Origin: an uncultured Lewinella sp.
GTDB lineage: Bacteria; Bacteroidota; Bacteroidia; Chitinophagales; Saprospiraceae
Direction of reading: 5' to 3'
NCBI GenBank assembly: GCA_937873655.1
Contig: CALMYQ010000021.1
Span: 62,001-126,000 of the forward strand
Length of the DNA: 64,000 nucleotides
This document shows, piece by piece, positions 28,201 through 58,500 of the stretch. Position 1 is the stretch's first letter. The number at the start of each line of letters is the position of its first letter. A program made the position numbers and the translations under genes. The notes beneath the pieces were generated by a model, which did no database searches, had not been told where the DNA came from, and worked only from the letters and a program-made list of their open reading frames with translations.

Positions 28201-31200
28201 TTATTTCACCGCCAATGAAACCGGTTCCGTTTTCCCTGCCCTGATCCAGACCATTGAAAACTATTACGAAGGCCAACCCGATCCCGGGCTCTTTACGCGC
28301 ATCGCATACAATTATGATGGATACGGGAATGTGATCAGCTATACCGATTTGGCCAATGACGATGCCAATGAACAGATCCACGCCGACGTAACCTACCATT
28401 ATGACACGAACAAGCACCTGGTTTCGGTTCCGGCGGCCATCCGGGTAACCAATTCCGGCGGGGCCCTCCTGCGCAAACGGGAAGCGGATATTGACGATGC
28501 CGGCAATGTAACGCAGATCCGCCAATTCCTGGATGCTTCCTCATCATCCGATCATGATATGGAATACGATGTATACGGCAATCTCACCAGGATCACCCGC
28601 CCGCCGAATGAAAATGGCGAACGGGTTTGGTATGCTTACGAATATGACGACCAGGTACAGACCTACACCGTCCTGGTTCACGACGTATACCAGGACACCT
28701 CCCGGGCGGTTTACGATTATCGCTTCGGCTTACCCCTGGAAACCACCGATAAAAACGGGCAGATCATCCGTTACACCCTCGACGCGGCGGGCAGAATCGC
28801 CACCGTCACCAGCCCTTACGAACTGGCATCCGGGGCTCCGTATACTCTTTCCAATGCCTATTTTCCCCAGGCCGACGTACCCTATGCCGTGACCCGCCAC
28901 TTCGACCCGGAAACCGGACAGGATATCGAAACCTATACCTTTATGGATGGCCTGGCCCGGCCCGTTCAGGTCAAAAAGACGGGGTCCCTGTTTAAAGGGG
29001 AGGATCAGCAGGATGTGCCGGATATGATCGTTTCCGGAAGGGTGGTTTTTGACGGGCTGGGCAGAACGGCAGCTACCCATTATCCCACCCGGGAACCATT
29101 CGGCAATAACAGCCAGTTCAATACCGGCTTTGACAACATTACCCCGACAAAAACCACCTATGACATCCTTGACCGGCCACTGACAACCACCCTGCCGGAC
29201 GGCGCCCAAACCCGGATGACCTACAGCATCGGTCCGGATAATTCCGGACTGACGACCTTTGCCACCGCCGTAACGGATGCGCTGGGCAACGAAAAGGAAA
29301 CCTATAACGATATCCGCAACCGGCAACGAGCCGTCACGGATCATGGCCCGGCCGGGCCGATCTGGACCACCTTCCGGTATAATGTCCTTTCGGAACTCCT
29401 GACCGTAACCGATGTCGGCGGAAATGTAACCCGGTATACGTATGATCAACTGGGCAGAAAGCTGAGTGTGGATCATCCGGACAACGGCCTGACCGAATTC
29501 CGCTATGACCTGGCCGGCAACCTGACCAGCAAGGTTACCGCACAGATCCGGCAAAAATACCCCGATGGGGGCGCCATCCGGTATACCTACGACAAACAGC
29601 GTCTCATACAGATCGACTATCCCGAGAATTTCCAGAACAAGGTGAAATTCTACTACGGCAGCCCGCAGGATACCGCCGGTCACCGCGCCCGCGGCCGGAT
29701 CTGGTTGCAGGAAGACGCCACCGGCGGCCAGGAGTTTTTCTACGGCCCGCTGGGCGAGGTCACCAAGACCATCCGCACAATATTGATCAACACGAATACT
29801 TCCATGACCTTCGTCTGGGAGGATGAATATGACTCCTGGAACCGCATCCAGAAAATGAAATACCCGGACGGCGAGATCGTAGACTACCACTACAACCGGG
29901 CCGGAAACCTGAACCGGATGACCTCCACCAAAGTAGACCAGCCCTACACGATGGTCAGGCAATTGGGCTACGACGAATTTGAACAGCGCATTTTCCTGAA
30001 ATACGGCAACGGAACCACTACAAAATATGAGTACGACCCTAACCGCCGCTGGCTGGACCACCTGGTAGCCAGGGGCCCGGGCCGCCTGATGATGGACAAC
30101 CGCTACGCGTATGACCTGATGGGCAATATCCTCTCCATCCGGAACACCGCACCCGCCGGCGTTTCAGAACTGGGCGGCGCTACCGAAAGCCGGTTTGTGT
30201 ACGATGATCTGTACCGGCTCGTGAGCGCCAGCGGCAACCAGGAAAAACCGGGAGCAACGGAAGCGTATTCCATGATGATGGAATACGACAACTTGCACAA
30301 CATCAATCACAAAACCCAGTCGCACACCCATAACGGCACGGAGATTTCGCTAACCTCCTACACCTTTGATTACCTGTACGATCCGGCCGGCCGGCCGCAT
30401 ACCCCTGCACAGATCGGCGACAAGAAATACGGCTACGACGCCAACGGCAACCAGTCCGGCTGGATACAGGACAACCGCCCCGATTTCCGGAAAATATCCT
30501 GGGATGAGGAAAACCGGATCACCTCCATTCAGGATAACGGCTACCTGAACCGGTACACCTGCGATGCCGGTGGAGAGCGGGTGATCAAAAGTCACGGCGG
30601 CATGCAGGCCGTATTTGTTGACGGCGCGATTGCCGGCCCCATCAGTCACGACGAAAATTATACAGCTTATGTAAGCCCCTACCTGGTCTTCCGCGAACAG
30701 GGTTTTACCAAACATTACTACATGGAAGGCGAGCGGATCATGAGCAAGATCGGCACAGGCGACTTTTATACCAATACCATCCCCCTCGGTACAGGCATCA
30801 CTGCCGGCGGGCTCAATTACGCCGACCGGCGCGACCTGCTGAAGGCGGCCCTGGTCCGGTTTCTGCGGGAACATGTAATGGGCGAAAACCTGGCCACGCT
30901 GGAAGACAGCATCCGGTTTGTCCAGGATGCCGGGATTCCGATCCCCTCCTTCGATCTGGGCGACTATACCAACCCGCCCATCGGCTGGCCTGTACCCGCC
31001 CCAACCCACGCCGACTCCATCTGCGCGCCCTGGCCCCCCGACCCGCGTGAGGCCAACGCCACCAACGGCAACGTGGAAGCGGGCTACGGTTTTATCGGTT
31101 ACGCCGGCGTCCCGGAGTTCAACCAGTTCTACTATCACCCCGATCACCTGGGCAGCACCAGCTATATCACCGACCTGAACGGATCGGTGCGCCAGTACGC

Positions 31201-39393: not shown

Positions 39394-39434
39394 CCGGATT
39401 ACGCATTTTTGGAATACCGGAGTGCGTAATCCGG
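39394..39434 (+). terminator. Hairpin between the haloperoxidase and EAD11 genes
   Basis: CCGGATTACGCA (39394-39405) is perfectly inverted as TGCGTAATCCGG (39423-39434) around a 17-nt loop that starts with TTTTT. It probably ends the upstream transcript; no T-run follows the stem. Confidence 0.45.
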
Positions 39435-39475
39435 ATTATTCGGGGTATATTTGTCTGGAATCCAATCTATTATTT

Positions 39476-40390
39476 ATGGGCCCTGCGGCTTTTAAGGAAA
39501 AGCTTCAACAACTTGTCGCCGACGATCAACTCGATGAGGCTGCAGAGGCATTGACCGGATTCTGGAAAAAGAAACACGCCGGCCTGGAAGCGCTGTCATT
39601 GGCCCAGCTCCGCCGGTTGAAAACCCTGAAGACCGAGCAAAGCAAAGGCACGATCAGCGATAACGACGCGTTTGTGGAGCGGGCCAAAGTTACGGATGCG
39701 CTCCTGCTGATCATCGGCCAGACGGACACCGGCAAACCAACCGTGCCGGAAGAATTGAAAGCCTACCTGCCGCCCAAACCTGCCTTTCAACCGGTTATGC
39801 TGGTTCTTATTGCCGCGTTTTTTATGGCGGTGGCCTTTATAACCTATCGCGCCTTTTTCACCCGGCCGGAAGACTTTACCCTCGCCCTCAATTTCATGGA
39901 ATCCGGCGATGAAAGTAAATTGGTCAACCAGGGAAAAGCCCGAATCATCCTCGGCAGTCGCCCGATGGACGTAAAAGCCATCAATGCGGAAGGCCGGATC
40001 TTTTACGAACAGATTCCCGCTTCGGCACTCAATGATTCCGTCCGGGTGGTCGTTATAGATATGCCCTACCGGGTGACCGGGCAATCGGCCTACACCGCCG
40101 CAAAAAGCCGGTCCATTGCCGTCAGCCTGGAGCCCGTACAGGATACGCTCAGCTGGCGGGGGACGGTAATTGACAATGGCGGTAAACCTGTTGAAGATGC
40201 GATCATTGACGTGGAAAACGGCCTCGCAAAAGGGCAGACCGATGCGATGGGACATTTTCGCATCGCGGTGCCCGGCAAGGCCGGCGACCAGGTGCAGACG
40301 GTTGTCCTGCTGAACGGAAAGGTGGTCAGAAATGCCCGCTTCACTTTATCGGAAACCGCGCCTCCTACCATAGTTTTAGACGATGAATGA
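39476..40390 (+). CDS. Membrane protein with N-terminal effector-associated domain 11 (EAD11)
   Basis: 304 residues from ATG 39476; a GTG at 39422 would lengthen it across the hairpin. Residues 1-80 match the helical EAD11 adaptor: LQQLVADDQLDEAAEAL, then LAQLRRLKTLKTEQSKGTIS and DNDAFVERAKVTDALL. A membrane helix lies at about 107-129. The periplasmic part ends in a carboxypeptidase-regulatory-like Ig fold at about 228-290 (WRGTVIDNGGKPVEDAIIDV, GQTDAMGHFRIAV). EADs recruit partners carrying the same EAD in conflict and signalling systems; here it would be held at the inner face of the membrane. First gene of a three-gene operon (gaps 6 and 10 nt). The domain call is by eye. Confidence 0.7.
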   Translation: MGPAAFKEKLQQLVADDQLDEAAEALTGFWKKKHAGLEALSLAQLRRLKTLKTEQSKGTISDNDAFVERAKVTDALLLIIGQTDTGKPTVPEELKAYLPPKPAFQPVMLVLIAAFFMAVAFITYRAFFTRPEDFTLALNFMESGDESKLVNQGKARIILGSRPMDVKAINAEGRIFYEQIPASALNDSVRVVVIDMPYRVTGQSAYTAAKSRSIAVSLEPVQDTLSWRGTVIDNGGKPVEDAIIDVENGLAKGQTDAMGHFRIAVPGKAGDQVQTVVLLNGKVVRNARFTLSETAPPTIVLDDE

Positions 40391-43224: not shown

Positions 43225-43278
43225 ACGACGAAAATCGTTTTTTAACTATAAAAATAGTTGAATGACGAAAAAAATAAT
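43225..43278 (+). promoter_or_regulatory. Three BlaI-type operator sites at 20-bp steps (module 1)
   Basis: The central site ACTATAAAAATAGT (43245-43258) is a perfect 5+5 palindrome. A weaker site ACGACGAAAATCGT (43225-43238, arms ACGA/TCGT) lies 20 bp upstream. A half-site beginning ACGA (43265-43278) lies 20 bp downstream. The layout relative to the promoter is the same as in module 2, where all three sites are strong. Likely bound by the BlaI-type repressor encoded at 43324. Confidence 0.6.
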
Positions 43279-43288
43279 TGTAGCTTTG
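43258..43288 (+). promoter_or_regulatory. Promoter of the first BlaI/M56 module
   Basis: TTG (43258-43260), 20 nt, TAGCTTTG (43281-43288): an exact Bacteroidota promoter. The TTG overlaps the last base of the central operator, so a bound repressor would block the polymerase. Start of transcription is expected about 30 bp before the ATG at 43324, supporting that start. Confidence 0.7.
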
Positions 43289-43323: not shown

Positions 43324-43686
43324 ATGAAACGACTCACACCGAAAGAAGAAGAGGTCATGCAGGCAGTCTGGCGATTGGAAAAGGCCTTTGCCAAGGACGT
43401 TCGCGAAGAATTGCCGGAGCCCAGACCGCACGTCAACACCGTGTCGACCGTTATGCGGAAACTGGTGAAGAAGGGGTTTCTCGGTTTCGAGGATTTCGGC
43501 GCCACCCACCGGTATTTTGCCAAAGTGGGCAAGGAGGATTACAGCCAGGAATACCTCGGCGAAAAGCTGGCCGGCTATTTCGGGGATTCCTATAAGGAAA
43601 TGGTCGCCTTTTTTGCCAAGGAAGAAAAAGTCAGCGTGGAGGACCTGAAAGAGATCATCCGCATGATCGAAAATCCGGAAGAATGA
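43324..43686 (+). CDS. BlaI/MecI/CopY family transcriptional repressor (module 1)
   Basis: 121 residues from ATG 43324 (MKRLTPKEEEVMQAVWRLEK); a start at 43258 would lie inside the operator and promoter. Winged-helix domain in residues 1-75: EEVMQAVWRLEKAFAKDVRE, HVNTVSTVMRKLVKKGFL with the recognition helix NTVSTVMRKL. The dimerisation tail carries SYKEMVAFFAKEEKVSVEDL. In Gram-positives such repressors are cleaved after the M56 sensor is activated. The M56 gene follows after 51 bp. The paralogue at 57987-58358 is similar along its whole length. Confidence 0.9.
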   Translation: MKRLTPKEEEVMQAVWRLEKAFAKDVREELPEPRPHVNTVSTVMRKLVKKGFLGFEDFGATHRYFAKVGKEDYSQEYLGEKLAGYFGDSYKEMVAFFAKEEKVSVEDLKEIIRMIENPEE

Positions 43687-43737: not shown

Positions 43738-45912
43738 ATGCCGGTTATCAATACCCTTTTTCCATATATCCTGAAGATCAATATTGCCCTGCTGATTTTA
43801 GGCGCCATTTACTGGTTTCTGCTCCGCAGGGAAACCTTCCACCGGCTCAACAGGTGGATCATGCTGGGCATCCTTTTCACTTCGCTGGCGCTGCCTTTTT
43901 TCATGCTTCGCCAGAACCTGATCAGCAATCCGCTCTACCGTTGGGTTGATCAGGCCGTTTTGCTTGCGGAAGCGCCCGATGCGGCGGCGTTTCCCGGGAT
44001 CGCGCCCGAGGCATGGGCAGTACCTGAACCCTCAGCTCCGGCGGCGCCGGCCGCTTTGCCGGAAGAACCAGCGGAGCCTGCTATCGAAGAGCCGGCGCCG
44101 ATAGCCCTATTCGCCGACGCCCCTGATCGCAATTGGGAACTGATATCCTGGGCCGGGCGTTTGTACTGGCTGGTGGCGTTGATGCTGGGCTTGCGTTTGC
44201 TGATGCAGGTAATATCGGTCGGCCGGGTTTTGTGGTACAGTAACCGGCGCAATGCTCCCGTTTTGCTCAACGACCGGATCCCGGCGCCGTTTTCTTTTTT
44301 CCACTGGATCGTGCTCAACCCGGAACAGCACAGCGGCCGGTTGCGCGACCAGATCATTGCCCATGAGGAAGTGCACGCCCGCGAAGGCCATACAGCCGAC
44401 ATCCTGCTGATGGAGTTGTTTTCCATTTTCTGCTGGTTCAACCCGATGGTCTGGGCGCTGAAAAAGGCCGTGCGATTGAACCTGGAGTTTATCGCCGATG
44501 AAGCCGTTTTGCGTTCCGGACAGGATAAAAAAGAATACCAGTACAATCTGCTCAAATCCATTGTTCCCGACTACCAGCTGATGCTGGCCAATCATTTCAA
44601 CCATTCGTTCATTAAAAACAGAATTGCCATGATGAATGCCAAGAAATCACCCGTTCAATCAAAATGGAAGTATTTCCTCATCCTGCCCGCCGTTCTGGGA
44701 CTGATGCTGGCTTTTAGCCCGGCGGTTGCACAGAACCCGGCGCCGGAAACGACTGCCAGACCCGTCCAGGTTCCAACGCCTGCGCCGGTTGTGGAGCCCG
44801 CCGTGGAAACAATCGTTGAAGCGCCGGATCCGGCGCCCGTGCCTGCGGTTGTGGTAGAATCTGCCGGTTCAGGGGTGTCGGTTAATGTCCGGCCCCAGCC
44901 GTCGGTCGCAGTCGGCATCGGCCAGTCCGCCGGCGCATCCGTATCCGCTTCCGGAGTCGGTGTTTCGACGGCAGTAGCCGGCCGCGCCACCGGATCGATA
45001 AACAGCGCAGTTGCCGGAATGGGCAGCAATTCGGTGACCACAGCGGGTCCGGTCGTGGCGAATTCGGGAACCGCCTCTGCCGGCATCAGCGCCAATGCTC
45101 TGGCGCCTGTCCCGACCAGGGAAGGGGATATCTATGTCGTGATCCGGCAGAATACGAAGGAAGAAACGCTGATGGATATCCGGAAAATCCTGGCCGCCCG
45201 GGGGATCAATTTCGACTATTCAGATCTGAAACTCAATGAAGATAATCTGATCACAAGGATCAACCTGTCAGTCAGGGTTGAAGACCGGTTCCAGGGCCGG
45301 TTGGACGGTTATAATGACGGCCGGCCGATTGATGCTCCGCTGGTGGTATACCTGCGCCCCGAAATGCAGAGTTTTGGCGTATCCAAAGATATTCCCAATG
45401 ACCTTGAACCGGAGGTGAGGAATACACTGGAAAAGCTTTCAGGTCTTTGGATAACGAATGGCAAAAATCAGGTCATTTCAGGAGAATTGTTCAAATATGC
45501 CGTTCGGGGCAGTAACAAAGAAGGCATGACCTATACCCCTTCCGGTACGGCCGGTAAGAAAAATATCTTTGTTGTGATCTCGGGCAATACGACCAAGGCC
45601 GATATCAGGAAAATTGAGGACGAACTGAAGGAAAAAGGATTGTATCTCCGTTTTTCAAAGCTGGATTTTACCTCCGACGGCCGGATCTCCAAAATAAAAA
45701 TCGATGTCAGGGACGACCACGGGCTTTCCGGCAACCTGAGCAATACCTATGATACGCCGGAAGACAAGGTCTATATTTACCGGTTTTACGATGGGGACGG
45801 CGGCTTCGGCATCGGCAGCGGCTCGGACCTGGACAAGGATAAAAAAATGCCCAAAAACGTCCGGAATGCTATCAGGGAAACGAAATCCGGATACAAGATC
45901 GGTACGTTTTAA
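43738..45912 (+). CDS. BlaR1-like M56 membrane metallopeptidase with duplicated C-terminal domain (module 1)
   Basis: 724 residues. N-terminal membrane helices (residues about 8-60, 140-165) and the zinc protease motif HEEVH (His209, Glu210, His213) in IIAHEEVHAREGHTADILL. The HFNHSFIKNRIAMM segment near 290 and a further membrane helix at about 315-335 complete the M56 unit. A Pro/Ala/Val-rich linker follows, and then two copies of a about 60-residue module: IYVVIRQNTKEETLMDIRKI ... INLSVRVEDRFQGRL and IFVVISGNTTKADIRKIEDE ... KIDVRDDHGLSGNL. No penicillin-binding sensor domain is present. Probably cleaves or triggers cleavage of the BlaI repressor on an envelope signal. Confidence 0.88.
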   Translation: MPVINTLFPYILKINIALLILGAIYWFLLRRETFHRLNRWIMLGILFTSLALPFFMLRQNLISNPLYRWVDQAVLLAEAPDAAAFPGIAPEAWAVPEPSAPAAPAALPEEPAEPAIEEPAPIALFADAPDRNWELISWAGRLYWLVALMLGLRLLMQVISVGRVLWYSNRRNAPVLLNDRIPAPFSFFHWIVLNPEQHSGRLRDQIIAHEEVHAREGHTADILLMELFSIFCWFNPMVWALKKAVRLNLEFIADEAVLRSGQDKKEYQYNLLKSIVPDYQLMLANHFNHSFIKNRIAMMNAKKSPVQSKWKYFLILPAVLGLMLAFSPAVAQNPAPETTARPVQVPTPAPVVEPAVETIVEAPDPAPVPAVVVESAGSGVSVNVRPQPSVAVGIGQSAGASVSASGVGVSTAVAGRATGSINSAVAGMGSNSVTTAGPVVANSGTASAGISANALAPVPTREGDIYVVIRQNTKEETLMDIRKILAARGINFDYSDLKLNEDNLITRINLSVRVEDRFQGRLDGYNDGRPIDAPLVVYLRPEMQSFGVSKDIPNDLEPEVRNTLEKLSGLWITNGKNQVISGELFKYAVRGSNKEGMTYTPSGTAGKKNIFVVISGNTTKADIRKIEDELKEKGLYLRFSKLDFTSDGRISKIKIDVRDDHGLSGNLSNTYDTPEDKVYIYRFYDGDGGFGIGSGSDLDKDKKMPKNVRNAIRETKSGYKIGTF

Positions 45913-55147: not shown

Positions 55148-57967
55148 CTATTCCTGTTTTTTGCGCGACCTGTACCAGTCACTTTCATGCTCCAGTTTTT
55201 GTTCGAGGTATTGCTCAAGGGTCAGGTTTTCCTTACCCTTGCTGCGCATTTCCCTGATGTCGCTTGCAGAGAGGTCGTGGATCCTGCATTGTACGAGCAG
55301 GTCGACGGGGATATCCTTGAATCCGAGGTCGTTCAGGCTTCGGATATACCGGCCGTCTACGTCGTGAATGCCCAACTGGACAACTTCGTTGATCCCCATG
55401 TTTTTGTATCCCAGCGACTGGAGGTCCTTGATCAAAGCCGGTTGTATGTCATGGATGCTGGCCTGAACGGCTTCATCCAGGCTGAGCTTGAGGCCCAGGT
55501 CCCGAAGTTCCTTGATATAATCCGCGTCCACATCATGGATGGCCAGTTGAGCGATTTCATCTGCCGACATTTTGTCGAACCCGGCGCCGCGCAGGTCCTT
55601 CACAAAATCGGCATCTACGCCGTGAATCGCCAATTCTACGATATCGTCATTCGACAGGTCGGTAATGCCCGATTGTTGCAGCGCTTTCACAAAACTGGCA
55701 TCGACATCGTGGATCGCAAACTGGACGATCTCTTCCGTACCCAGGTTTTTGATGCCCGCCTGCTGCAGCGCCTTGATGTACTCAGCATCGACATCATGGA
55801 TCGCAAATTGCGTGATGGTTTCAACGTCCAGCCCCTGGAGGCCTGCCGCTTTCAGGCCGTTCATGTAGTCGGTATCCACCCCGTGGATGGCAAGCTGGAC
55901 AATTTCGTCCCGGGTGAGGTCGCTGAATCCCGCCTTTTTGAGCGAGTTGATGAACGCCGGATCTACGTCGTGAATGGCGTATTGAACCACTTCCTCCGCA
56001 CTCATATCTCCCATCCCAGCCGATTTGAGGCCCTTGATGAAATCCGCATTGACATCGTGAATGGAAAACTGGACGATCTCTTCCGGGGTCAGTTTCCTGA
56101 ATCCCGCGTCGTCCAGCGCCTTGACATAATCGGCATTCACGTCATGGATGGAGAATTGCACAAGCGTCTCCATCGGCAGATTTGCGTATCCCGCGGCTTT
56201 CAGCGACCGGATATACTCCGGATTCACGTCGTGAATGGAAGCCTGCACGATCTCTTCGGCCGAGAAATCCTTGTACCCCAGGTCTTTCATTTCCCGGACA
56301 TAGGCCGGCGTAACGTCATGGATCTGGAACTGGATCAGGTCCCGAAGGTCCAAACCCTTGAGCCCCGCCGCCTCGAACGCGGGCAATGCCTCTTTGAGGT
56401 AGGGCAGCGTGACGCCATGAATGGCTGCCGCCCTCAGTTCTTCATCGGATATCCTGGTGTACCCGTTCTGTTTGAGGTACGCAAACCAGGCCTTGTTGAT
56501 GTCGGCCAGAAACAGGTGCAGCATGGTTTCATCTTCCAGGCCGGTGAAGCCTTCCTGGGCGAGATAGGTCCTGAATTCGCTGCTTTCGGTAAAGGAGAAT
56601 TTGCCTTCTCCCTCGTTGCCGTCGAATTTTCCGGTAAAGACCATAGTCCCGGCCTCGCGGATCATTTTGAACTCGGTTGTACCGGCAGTAAGCCCTGTGA
56701 ATGCGCTTTTCGGGTAGCAATCGCTGATCACCCAGTTGTGCCAGCGGCTTCCGTTTGAGCCGCTTCCGGTTTCGAGGCACAATTCCCCGTCCTTGGTCCA
56801 GGCCCGCCATTCACCGCTTTTTTCGGCAAAAGGTGCAGGAGTAACGTCTTCCAGCCGGAGCTTTTCAAATTTTACGGGCGGAATGGCCGGCAATTCGGGT
56901 ACGGTCAGTTCGGTGTCGGGCACGGGAGCGGGTTGGGCGGTCGTTCGGACAGCGTTCAGAGTCAATACGGACAGGCCCACCAGCGGAACCAGAATGAAGT
57001 ATTTCCAGCCTGAGCCGACGGATGATTTCTTACTGTTCATCATGACAATTCTCCGTTTTAGAATGGATTGATTATAGTTAGTAGTCAGGTTCAAAGGAAG
57101 TTGCGGCGCGCAAACCTTCAACAGGCTCATCTGATAGGTCTGCTTGTGGGCGCCGGTAGCCAGCATCGAATCGTCGGTGAGGAATTCAAGGTTATTCTCC
57201 ACCGCCTTGCGGTACATCCAGGCGAAAGGGTTGAACCACTGGATGATGACCATCAATTCGGCCAGCAGAATATCCAGCGAATGCCGTTGGGCGACGTGTA
57301 TTTTCTCATGCTGGAGGATCTGGTTGAAGGTGTCCCAGTCATAGCGCGCCGGATTGATGAAAATGTTGTTCCAGAAGGAATAGGGCGACTGGTTTTCGCC
57401 CAGCTCCACAATGCGGTACCGACCGTCGCGGATAGCCGGCCTGGAGATGCGCATATACATGAGCAGACCAAGCTGTACGAAGAAGTTGAGCCCGAAAACG
57501 GCCAGCCCGGCCAGGTAAATGAACGTCAGGATCTGCAGGGCGGAAAAGCGGATCAACGGCTTTCGGGCGGGCGCCGAAACCGATTGGACCGGTTCGGCTG
57601 TTGCAGTCCCGGAAAGGCTCCCTTCGATCCCTTCCGGCCATACGCGCTCAGTGGGGATCGAAGTACGGGCGGATGGTCCGGCAGGGTTTTCCGGGGGCGC
57701 TGCCTGCACCCCGGTTTCCGCTTCGGCCCCGGCCGTCTCAGGCGTTAAACGGCTGGTTTCAATAACGGCCAATGGGAGAGACGGGGTTTCATTCCACAAC
57801 GACCATCCGGAGGGAATGGTCAGCGCCGGCAGGCCGAAAGCCAGCACAATGCAGCCGGCCAGCAATCCGCGGTTCAACCGGAAAAAGGTCTCCTTTTCCA
57901 GGAATAATTTATAAAACAGGTAGAACGAACTTACCAGCAGTGCGGCATGCAGGATATAGCGTACCAT
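55148..57967 (-). CDS. BlaR1-like M56 membrane metallopeptidase with 14 helical repeats (module 2)
   Basis: 939 residues. Membrane helices near residues 5-50 and 145-170, the motif HEKIH (His220, Glu221, His224) in ILQHEKIHVAQRHSLDILL, and NYNQSILKRRIVMMNSKKSS before a further helix at about 320. The middle is beta-rich (VTPAPFAEKSGEWRAWTKDG). From about residue 530 come fourteen repeats of about 29 residues, each beginning IHDV or IHGV: for example IHDVNADYVKALDDAG followed by FRKLTPEEIVQF. These likely form a periplasmic helical solenoid that senses a ligand. Such HGV repeats are known in M56 proteins of other phyla. Start 19 nt past the BlaI stop. Confidence 0.88.
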   Translation of the reverse strand: MVRYILHAALLVSSFYLFYKLFLEKETFFRLNRGLLAGCIVLAFGLPALTIPSGWSLWNETPSLPLAVIETSRLTPETAGAEAETGVQAAPPENPAGPSARTSIPTERVWPEGIEGSLSGTATAEPVQSVSAPARKPLIRFSALQILTFIYLAGLAVFGLNFFVQLGLLMYMRISRPAIRDGRYRIVELGENQSPYSFWNNIFINPARYDWDTFNQILQHEKIHVAQRHSLDILLAELMVIIQWFNPFAWMYRKAVENNLEFLTDDSMLATGAHKQTYQMSLLKVCAPQLPLNLTTNYNQSILKRRIVMMNSKKSSVGSGWKYFILVPLVGLSVLTLNAVRTTAQPAPVPDTELTVPELPAIPPVKFEKLRLEDVTPAPFAEKSGEWRAWTKDGELCLETGSGSNGSRWHNWVISDCYPKSAFTGLTAGTTEFKMIREAGTMVFTGKFDGNEGEGKFSFTESSEFRTYLAQEGFTGLEDETMLHLFLADINKAWFAYLKQNGYTRISDEELRAAAIHGVTLPYLKEALPAFEAAGLKGLDLRDLIQFQIHDVTPAYVREMKDLGYKDFSAEEIVQASIHDVNPEYIRSLKAAGYANLPMETLVQFSIHDVNADYVKALDDAGFRKLTPEEIVQFSIHDVNADFIKGLKSAGMGDMSAEEVVQYAIHDVDPAFINSLKKAGFSDLTRDEIVQLAIHGVDTDYMNGLKAAGLQGLDVETITQFAIHDVDAEYIKALQQAGIKNLGTEEIVQFAIHDVDASFVKALQQSGITDLSNDDIVELAIHGVDADFVKDLRGAGFDKMSADEIAQLAIHDVDADYIKELRDLGLKLSLDEAVQASIHDIQPALIKDLQSLGYKNMGINEVVQLGIHDVDGRYIRSLNDLGFKDIPVDLLVQCRIHDLSASDIREMRSKGKENLTLEQYLEQKLEHESDWYRSRKKQE

Positions 57968-57986: not shown

Positions 57987-58358
57987 TTAACTGTTCCGGT
58001 TTCCCTCGTTCCGGATCATTTTGAGGATATCTTCCAGCTCTTCGGGGCTTATTTTTTCCTGACGGGCGAAATAAGCGACCATCTTGGGGTAGGAATTGTC
58101 AAAATAGGCTTCAAGTATGTCGCCCAATTCCTGTTGCTGATAGATTTCTTTTTTAAGAATGGGATAGTAGCGGTACGTGTTCCCAAACTGTTCATGGTCC
58201 ACATAACCCTTTTCTTCCAGGATGCGGATGATGGTGGAAACCGTGTTGTAATGCGGTTTGGGCTCCGGGAATTCATCCATGATCTCCTTGACGAAAGCCT
58301 TGTTCAACCGCCACAGGATCTGCATGATCTGTTCTTCTCTTTTGGCCAGTTTTTGCAT
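57987..58358 (-). CDS. BlaI/MecI/CopY family transcriptional repressor (module 2)
   Basis: 123 residues from ATG 58358 (MQKLAKREEQIMQILWRLNK). The longer start at 58388 overlaps the operator. Winged-helix: QIMQILWRLNKAFVKEIMDE, HYNTVSTIIRILEEKGYVDH with the recognition helix; dimerisation tail SYPKMVAYFARQEKISPEEL. About half of the residues match the module 1 repressor by eye, including AFxKxxxxExPEPxPHxNTVST. First gene of a two-gene operon with the M56 protein, controlled by the operators just upstream. Confidence 0.9.
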   Translation of the reverse strand: MQKLAKREEQIMQILWRLNKAFVKEIMDEFPEPKPHYNTVSTIIRILEEKGYVDHEQFGNTYRYYPILKKEIYQQQELGDILEAYFDNSYPKMVAYFARQEKISPEELEDILKMIRNEGNRNS

Positions 58359-58377: not shown

Positions 58378-58408
58378 CAAATGTACAACTAATGATTTAG
58401 TAAGTCAA
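58378..58408 (-). promoter_or_regulatory. Promoter of the second BlaI/M56 module
   Basis: Minus-strand TTG (58406-58408), 20 nt, TACATTTG (58378-58385): an exact Bacteroidota promoter about 20 bp before the repressor ATG. The spacing between elements and operators is identical to module 1. Confidence 0.75.
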
Positions 58409-58441
58409 CTAATTTATTAGTATTTCAACTAAAAAATTAGT
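58388..58441 (-). promoter_or_regulatory. Three strong BlaI-type operators at exact 20-bp steps (module 2)
   Basis: ACTAATGATTTAGT (58388-58401), ACTAATTTATTAGT (58408-58421) and ACTAAAAAATTAGT (58428-58441). Each has arms ACTAA/TTAGT, and starts are 20 bp apart, two helical turns, so bound dimers would line up on one face. The first site fills the space between -33 and -7, beginning 2 nt from the -7 box. The second overlaps the -33 TTG by one base. Confidence 0.8.
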
Positions 58442-58469: not shown

Positions 58470-58500
58470 GGCTCCCGGGTCAGATCATGACCCGGGAGCC
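58470..58500 (-). terminator. Terminator of the YceI gene
   Basis: GGCTCCCGGGTCA (58470-58482) pairs perfectly with TGACCCGGGAGCC (58488-58500), loop 5 nt. On the minus strand a T-rich TTATTTTG follows. It isolates the YceI gene from the BlaI module. Confidence 0.8.

Follow-up and report, generated by a model that had tools for sequence, protein, structure and literature searches.

A row of three palindromes, spaced exactly 20 bp apart, stands before a blaI-M56 gene pair in the window, which is the whole 64,000-nt stretch of DNA from an uncultured Lewinella sp. that was analysed. The array is most probably the self-repression operator of this gene pair, as judged from its letters and its neighbours. 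Three repressor dimers would likely sit side by side on it, would likely bind cooperatively and would be released through the M56 protein. BlaI-M56 pairs are known switches of beta-lactam resistance in Gram-positive bacteria, and autoregulation by BlaI-family repressors is also known. What is new is the layout of a known kind of operator, with the sites placed in the promoter at a fixed 20-bp step.

The array and gene pair of module 2

The array, the promoter-like boxes and the genes of module 2 are listed in Table 1, together with those of module 1, a second such locus in the window. O1, O2 and O3 are exact copies of ACTAA-N4-TTAGT. They are 14-bp palindromes with 6-bp linkers, and their starts are 20 bp apart. 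Along minus-strand transcription the order is O3, O2, O1 and then the blaI ATG at 58358. A terminator-like hairpin stands between the yceI gene and the array. The sequence-only reading had placed the palindromes at 58388, 58408 and 58428, one between the promoter boxes, one touching the -33 box and one upstream. They were found again at these starts with the exact 20-bp step, and the coordinates agree with that placement. It had also put the repressors on one face of the helix. DNA has 10.5 bp per turn. A step of 20 bp is 1.9 turns and sets neighbouring sites about 34 degrees apart, which is nearly one face.

Table 1. Features of modules 2 and 1, with positions in the window
Feature	Positions	Strand	Sequence and remarks
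O1, proximal operator (module 2)	58388-58401		ACTAATGATTTAGT on plus, ACTAAATCATTAGT on minus; inside the -33/-7 spacer
O2, middle operator (module 2)	58408-58421		ACTAATTTATTAGT on plus, ACTAATAAATTAGT on minus; right arm includes the first T of the -33 TTG
O3, distal operator (module 2)	58428-58441		ACTAAAAAATTAGT on plus, ACTAATTTTTTAGT on minus; upstream of the promoter
-33 element (module 2)	58406-58408	minus	TTG (as GTTG); by eye, consensus from excerpts of PMC7366714
-7 box (module 2)	58378-58385	minus	TACATTTG; by eye, consensus from excerpts of PMC7366714
Terminator-like perfect hairpin	58470-58500	minus	13-nt arms; 3' of the yceI gene, T-rich stretch after it
blaI (module 2)	57987-58358	minus	123 aa, BlaI/MecI/CopY-type repressor; PF03965, MecI/BlaI chains
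M56 (BlaR1-like) membrane metallopeptidase (module 2)	55148-57967	minus	939 aa; HEKIH; PF05569
O3-like site (module 1)	43225-43238	plus	ACGACGAAAATCGT; 2 mismatches
O2-like site (module 1)	43245-43258	plus	ACTATAAAAATAGT; exact; right end enters the -33 TTG (43258-43260)
O1-like site (module 1)	43265-43278	plus	ACGAAAAAAATAAT; 2 mismatches; the -7 box follows after 2 bp
-7 box (module 1)	43281-43288	plus	TAGCTTTG
blaI (module 1)	43324-43686	plus	120 aa; PF03965, 97.7 bits against a cut-off of 22.6
M56 (BlaR1-like) metallopeptidase (module 1)	43738-45912	plus	724 aa; PF05569, 60.2 bits; HEEVH

The -33/-7 pair of module 2 is promoter-like and is predicted from the letters. The available excerpts of PMC7366714 give the Bacteroidetes promoter consensus as TTTG at -33 and TAnnTTTG at -7. 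The box TACATTTG fits the -7 consensus, and the GTTG into which O2 runs has 3 of the 4 letters of the -33 consensus. Between the TTG and the -7 box there are 20 nt, and O1 stops 2 bp short of the -7 box. The same excerpts report that a -33 motif could not be recovered globally in F. johnsoniae (PMC7366714).

The product of blaI scored 110.5 bits against PF03965 (Penicillinase_R; cut-off 22.6), which places it in that family. Its scores stayed under the NCBIfam cut-offs for BlaI of Bacillus (32.7 of 180 bits), MecI (29.9 of 250) and CopY_TcrY (43.4 of 121.95), so the repressor is not BlaI, MecI or CopY proper. Its only sequence matches in the PDB were MecI and BlaI, at about 20% identity, and the S. 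aureus MecI/BlaI-operator complexes (1sax, 2d45 and 1xsd) are among the matched entries. The fold was predicted from a 13-sequence input with a mean pLDDT of 79.6 and a pTM of 0.58. Its best PDB fold matches were again MecI and BlaI (E 3.5e-7, query TM 0.58-0.66, whole-chain rmsd 6.7-7.7), and the predicted fold is thus a MecI-like winged helix. Tyr-Phe is found at the place of N101-F102 in the MecI alignment, and the Phe (F97) is nearly invariant across the 13-row alignment.

The M56 gene starts 19 bp after blaI. Its M56 domain scored 41.1 bits against PF05569 (cut-off 31), and the HExxH motif is present as HEKIH. The C-terminus possesses IHD[VIL] repeats, with 11 matches in residues 549-896 that are mostly 29 residues apart, and no Pfam domain above its cut-off covers this region. 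Residues 330-939 gave 187 protein matches, and most of the 120 listed have an M56 domain. A search of the C-terminus for a penicillin-binding sensor domain gave no Pfam match at E 0.001, and in the BlaR1 equivalog test the protein scored 18 bits against blaR1_generic, where 400 are needed. Beta-lactam sensing by the M56 partner is unsupported, as there is no recognised penicillin-binding domain and the IHD[VIL] repeats are found instead.

Recurrence of the array beside blaI genes

The reading of the palindromes as BlaI operators is supported by the PF03965 repressor gene just downstream and by the recurrence of the array before relatives of this gene at the same step. In the window, ACTA-N6-TAGT occurs 4 times where 0.14 are expected, and 4 occurrences were reached in 0 of 100 shuffles. 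The single 14-mer is rare in the 8.07-Mb source genome, with 18 copies per strand against 150 of the reversed control, which is a different motif. The exact pair at step 20 was found at module 2 only within this genome. Single 14-mer sites were rejected as evidence. Fifteen of the 18 single-site places were returned as loci; the 11 examined have no BlaI ORF within about 1.5 kb, and the remaining four belong to modules 1 and 2.

Five BlaI homologues were identified in the source genome. Module 1 shows the module 2 layout with a degenerate triple, at an equal 20-bp step, 2-bp gap and 20-nt spacer. A third blaI lies on contig C224 (L019), where the gene order is a degenerate triple at step 20 (28972-29025), a small ORF of 116 aa, blaI and an M56-like ORF. 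With up to 3 mismatches, step-20 pairs were found at 8 places in the source genome versus 41 matches of the reversed pattern. Chance matches are thus common at this threshold, and it is the place beside blaI that speaks for the C224 triple. The remaining two homologues have a recognition helix that reads YTTTLK and possess no ACTA array. Elsewhere in the window, the ORF at 39422-40390 possesses Effector-associated domain 11 (EAD11) close to the N-terminal end.

Relatives of the repressor were fetched by protein and not by DNA. The query was the 13-row BlaI alignment, with 12 rows taken from loci that have an array and the remaining one from module 1. It matched 587 loci, and the best 80 of these, whose identity to the query is 49-62%, make up the sample. 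The sample is not neutral, because 12 of the 13 query rows were derived from arrays and the choice of 80 out of 587 favored close relatives. Represented in it are Flavobacterium, Aquimarina, Mucilaginibacter, Lewinella, Kordia and Saprospiraceae, and many of the loci are Flavobacteriaceae. Sites with at most one mismatch were found in the 400 nt before blaI at 78 of these best 80 of 587 loci. Among site spacings of up to 60 bp in the 80 loci, 20 bp was found in 115 pairs and 40 bp in 45, and the next most frequent, 23 and 3 bp, in 5 pairs each. At 74 of the best 80 of 587 loci two or more sites are chained in exact 20-bp steps, and at 60 of them three or more. In 1600 Markov shuffles, two-site chains arose in 0.6% and three-site chains in none. 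Among the 74 array loci, 56 have their -7 box 2 bp after O1. No TAnnTTTG was found within 40 nt after O1 at 13 of the 74, and those 13 keep the step.

Six of the 80 loci had no chain. At four of them (L106, L117, L120 and L130) an array lies farther upstream, by about 2.0-2.3 kb. A single exact site was found at L114 and no site at L112. The ORF tables of L106 and L117 contain a tandem blaI-M56-blaI-M56, with the array before the first copy and the matched blaI as the second. Tandem blaI-M56 copies are probable at L120 and L130 as well.

The order of the window was also sampled, with less selection. Fifty of its genomes, searched by Pfam family, gave 46 matches, and 28 new loci (L138-L165) were examined; the same check also took in four loci of the source genome and L166-L175. 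Twenty-one of the 28 have a BlaI match, 17 of the ACTA type and 4 of the YTTTLK type, and no BlaI match was found at the weak matches L155-L161. At least two sites in register are present at 10 of the 17 ACTA-type loci, one site at 5 (L138, L142, L146, L147 and L162) and none at 2 (L152 and L163). Three or more were found at a single one of the 17, L140, which has five sites. No step-20 ACTA chain was found at the YTTTLK-type loci L149, L151, L153 and L165. Two sites are therefore commoner in the order of the window, and three are typical of the named set rich in Flavobacteriaceae. At L154 an exact array pair precedes a blaI that is split over two reading frames.

The phylum was scanned in 395 genomes for two sites separated by 0 to 30 nt, and matches were found in 79 genomes. 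Among the 75 pairs listed, which come from 43 genomes, 51 have step 20, 6 have step 18 and 3 have step 40. With the source genome excluded, 49 of the 73 listed pairs are at step 20, versus 2.4 expected if the 31 steps were equal. A BlaI ORF was found at 27 of 30 returned loci and at 19 of 20 further step-20/40 places. One family relative, L031, has five sites in register (1501-1594) before blaI-M56. A stricter search of 295 genomes of the class for triples with at most 2 mismatches in all gave 10 places in 10 genomes, the source genome included. All 10 adjoin a BlaI ORF, and the reversed triple had 0 matches in the same 295 genomes. The ACTA pairs with an 18-bp step (6 of the 75 listed) form a minor class. 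Both of the fetched examples, L038 and L040, precede blaI, and at L040 an additional site lies on the downstream side of the -7 box.

The sequence-only reading had proposed that a genome scan for such arrays would reveal a regulon and that random occurrence would speak against it. Step-20 arrays do recur, and 40 of the 43 listed step-20/40 places, the module 2 locus included, adjoin blaI. This count points to a small regulon. There are three exceptions. At L023 the array is followed by an ABC-permease-like ORF, and a TATGTTTG box comes 2 bp behind the last site; at L176 a step-20 array precedes a TonB-like ORF; at L037 the match is a terminator-like palindrome downstream of an HU-like gene. 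A large regulon was also rejected for the source genome. Its step-20 pairs with up to 3 mismatches belong to the three BlaI loci, with one more each on C96 and C122, and these last two places look like chance. Regulation thus appears to be mostly autoregulatory. A few trans targets outside the blaI operon, such as L023 and L176, are possible.

A sister BlaI subfamily is present in the same order and also in the source genome (L018/L206). It has the helix YTT[TV]LK and a tandem operator of ACGA-N6-TCGT before blaI. Pairs of ACGA-N6-TCGT were found in 20 of 149 genomes of the order. There are 37 such pairs, with steps of 19-33, a mode of 22 and none at 20. Twenty of these loci were fetched, and a BlaI ORF was found at 12. 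All 12 have the helix Y-T-T-[TV]-L-K, with steps of 22-33 and never 20. At 10 of the 12 blaI loci a TAnnTTTG box lies in the linker between the ACGA sites, so that these sites straddle the -7 box. In the stretches fetched for the other eight arrays (L195-L202, steps 22-23) no BlaI ORF was found, and these arrays may belong to a different regulator or be trans targets. The ACTA half-site goes with a YNTVST-type helix and the ACGA half-site with YTT[TV]LK, and the half-site type thus tracks the recognition helix. The fixed 20-bp step thus belongs to the ACTA subfamily and is not general to tandem BlaI operators.

Readings of the 20-bp step

The step could possibly be set by promoter geometry, with the dimers binding independently. 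The repeat end TAGTTG would supply the -33 TTG, and the -7 box would follow 20 nt on. The spacing of the boxes equals the step from O1 to O2 at module 2, so promoter constraint alone could explain that step. The TTG after O2 is present at 48 of 71 named loci, and the frequent 2-bp gap between O1 and the -7 box (56 of 74) fits as well. Most in-register arrays of the order sample have two sites only. A relative, the CopY of S. pneumoniae, binds its two operators without cooperativity, according to the available excerpts of PMC7253601.

The third site is what argues against this explanation. Of the 80 named loci, 74 were chained, 72 of those were aligned and 71 of the 80 entered the third-site test; loci outside the test had no qualifying O1-O2 pair or too little upstream sequence. 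O3 lies outside the promoter, yet at 58 of the 71 named loci tested, all of which have a good pair of O1 and O2, a site with at most 2 mismatches is found exactly 20 bp above O2. Other offsets of 14-80 bp above O2 have a mean of 0.45 sites and a maximum of 3, a background that omits offsets 40 and 60 (2 and 0 sites). O3 is all-or-none, with at most 2 mismatches at 58 loci, three at 0 and at least 4 at 13. A fourth position is close to background (mean of 5.6 mismatches vs 5.7). The TTG is found after O3 at only 9 of the 71 loci, so O3 is no disguised -33 box. Because O3 is tied to no promoter box, the step between O3 and O2 is evidence beyond promoter constraint. The step is also kept through the five sites of L031 and at the 13 loci that lack TAnnTTTG. 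An origin of the step in promoter geometry is considered unlikely.

Recent common ancestry of the promoters could also conserve an array whose step has little functional meaning. The abundance of Flavobacteriaceae among the 80 loci would favor this, and the 58 triples are indeed related, as only 8 are left after greedy clustering at under 60% non-core identity. Yet the half-sites of the 58 triples are 92% identical pairwise versus 55% for the rest of the array, where 42% is expected from composition, which indicates a drifting spacer beside a preserved step and preserved half-sites. The step is also kept at the paralogues of the source genome and in Saprospiraceae, Mucilaginibacter and Flavobacterium loci, and ancestry alone is thus a very improbable explanation. 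It is hardly credible that the palindromes arose by chance as AT-rich repeats or belong to a regulator other than BlaI. In favor of this one can cite the three listed places off blaI (3 of 43; L023, L037 and L176) and the 8 of 20 ACGA arrays without a BlaI ORF in the fetched stretch. Against it stand blaI at 40 of the 43 listed places and at all 10 strict triples, the absence of the reversed triple from 295 genomes and the match of half-site type to recognition helix.

Self-repression through a row of dimers is the preferred reading. We infer binding by BlaI, cooperativity and release by the M56 protease from the computed sites and their step, from the way they line up with the promoter-like boxes, and from the neighbouring genes and the conservation in relatives. 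Three BlaI dimers would occupy nearly the same face of the helix and, with 14-bp palindromes and 6-bp linkers, would almost touch. The dimer on O1 would block the approach to the -7 box and the dimer on O2 would block the -33 box. The dimer on O3 would steady that on O2 by contact, and binding would then likely be cooperative. On a signal, the M56 partner would inactivate BlaI and the promoter would be freed in a sharp step, by analogy with BlaR1/MecR1. An O3 that is weaker in sequence but strictly in register is what cooperative filling predicts, and is no proof of it.

A wider reading can be put forward tentatively, with less than even confidence. One BlaI subfamily of Bacteroidota, that of the ACTA type, might build a stepwise-growing row of two to five dimers in a 20-bp register, with the operator repeat doubling as the -33 element. 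Cutting by the co-encoded M56 protease, with a sensor domain for something other than penicillin, might then collapse the row at once and provide an all-or-none switch of its own operon.

Known systems and significance

In the literature searched, which most subscription papers lie outside, no paper on BlaI operators in Bacteroidota was found. The terms BlaI, MecI and palindrom are absent from the main text of a F. psychrophilum transcriptome study, as far as it was available (PMC9723704), and the available passages of PMC12578637 are not concerned with BlaI or M56.

The closest known layout is that of the three operators of B. licheniformis. The BlaR1 partner in this bacterium is M56-type. 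In the available excerpts of PMC3305447, the BlaI operators OP1-OP3 of the bla divergon lie between the divergent blaP and blaIR1 operons, and in the model given there a signal from the BlaR1 receptor leads to the inactivation of BlaI by cleavage at N101-F102. The dimeric repressor of the same family, the three operators and the blaI-blaR1 autoregulation described in these excerpts have counterparts at module 2, where dimers and autoregulation are predicted. Unlike those of B. licheniformis, the module 2 operators follow one another within a single promoter at a fixed 20-bp step, and the core of the OP1 probe is TACAT-ATGTA versus ACTAA-N4-TTAGT here (PMC3305447).

The CopR/CopY operators have the consensus RNYKACANNTGTMRNY, and CopY promoters mostly possess two operators, usually separated by 24-39 bases with a mode of 26, according to the excerpts of PMC7253601. 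The repressors are related and the operators share a 16-bp register, in which Y3, K4, A5 and T12, M13, R14 fit ACTA-N6-TAGT. Unlike these operators as described in the excerpts, the sites here have no central CA/TG, and two to five of them stand at exactly 20 bp. The canonical bla/cop core TACANNTGTA was not found in the module 2 sites, and only the outer letters of RNYKACANNTGTMRNY fit. The TACA/TGTA core of the family is likewise absent from the ACTAA-N4-TTAGT operator.

An operator register that predicts its regulator provides several handles, namely the operator sequence, the controlled promoter and a spacing rule that can be tested at the bench. Two BlaI subfamilies in one genome are also a clean case for determining how the recognition helix and dimer packing set the operator code and layout. 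The sister subfamily has the BlaI family and tandem palindromes before blaI in common with module 2, and its steps of 22-33 differ.
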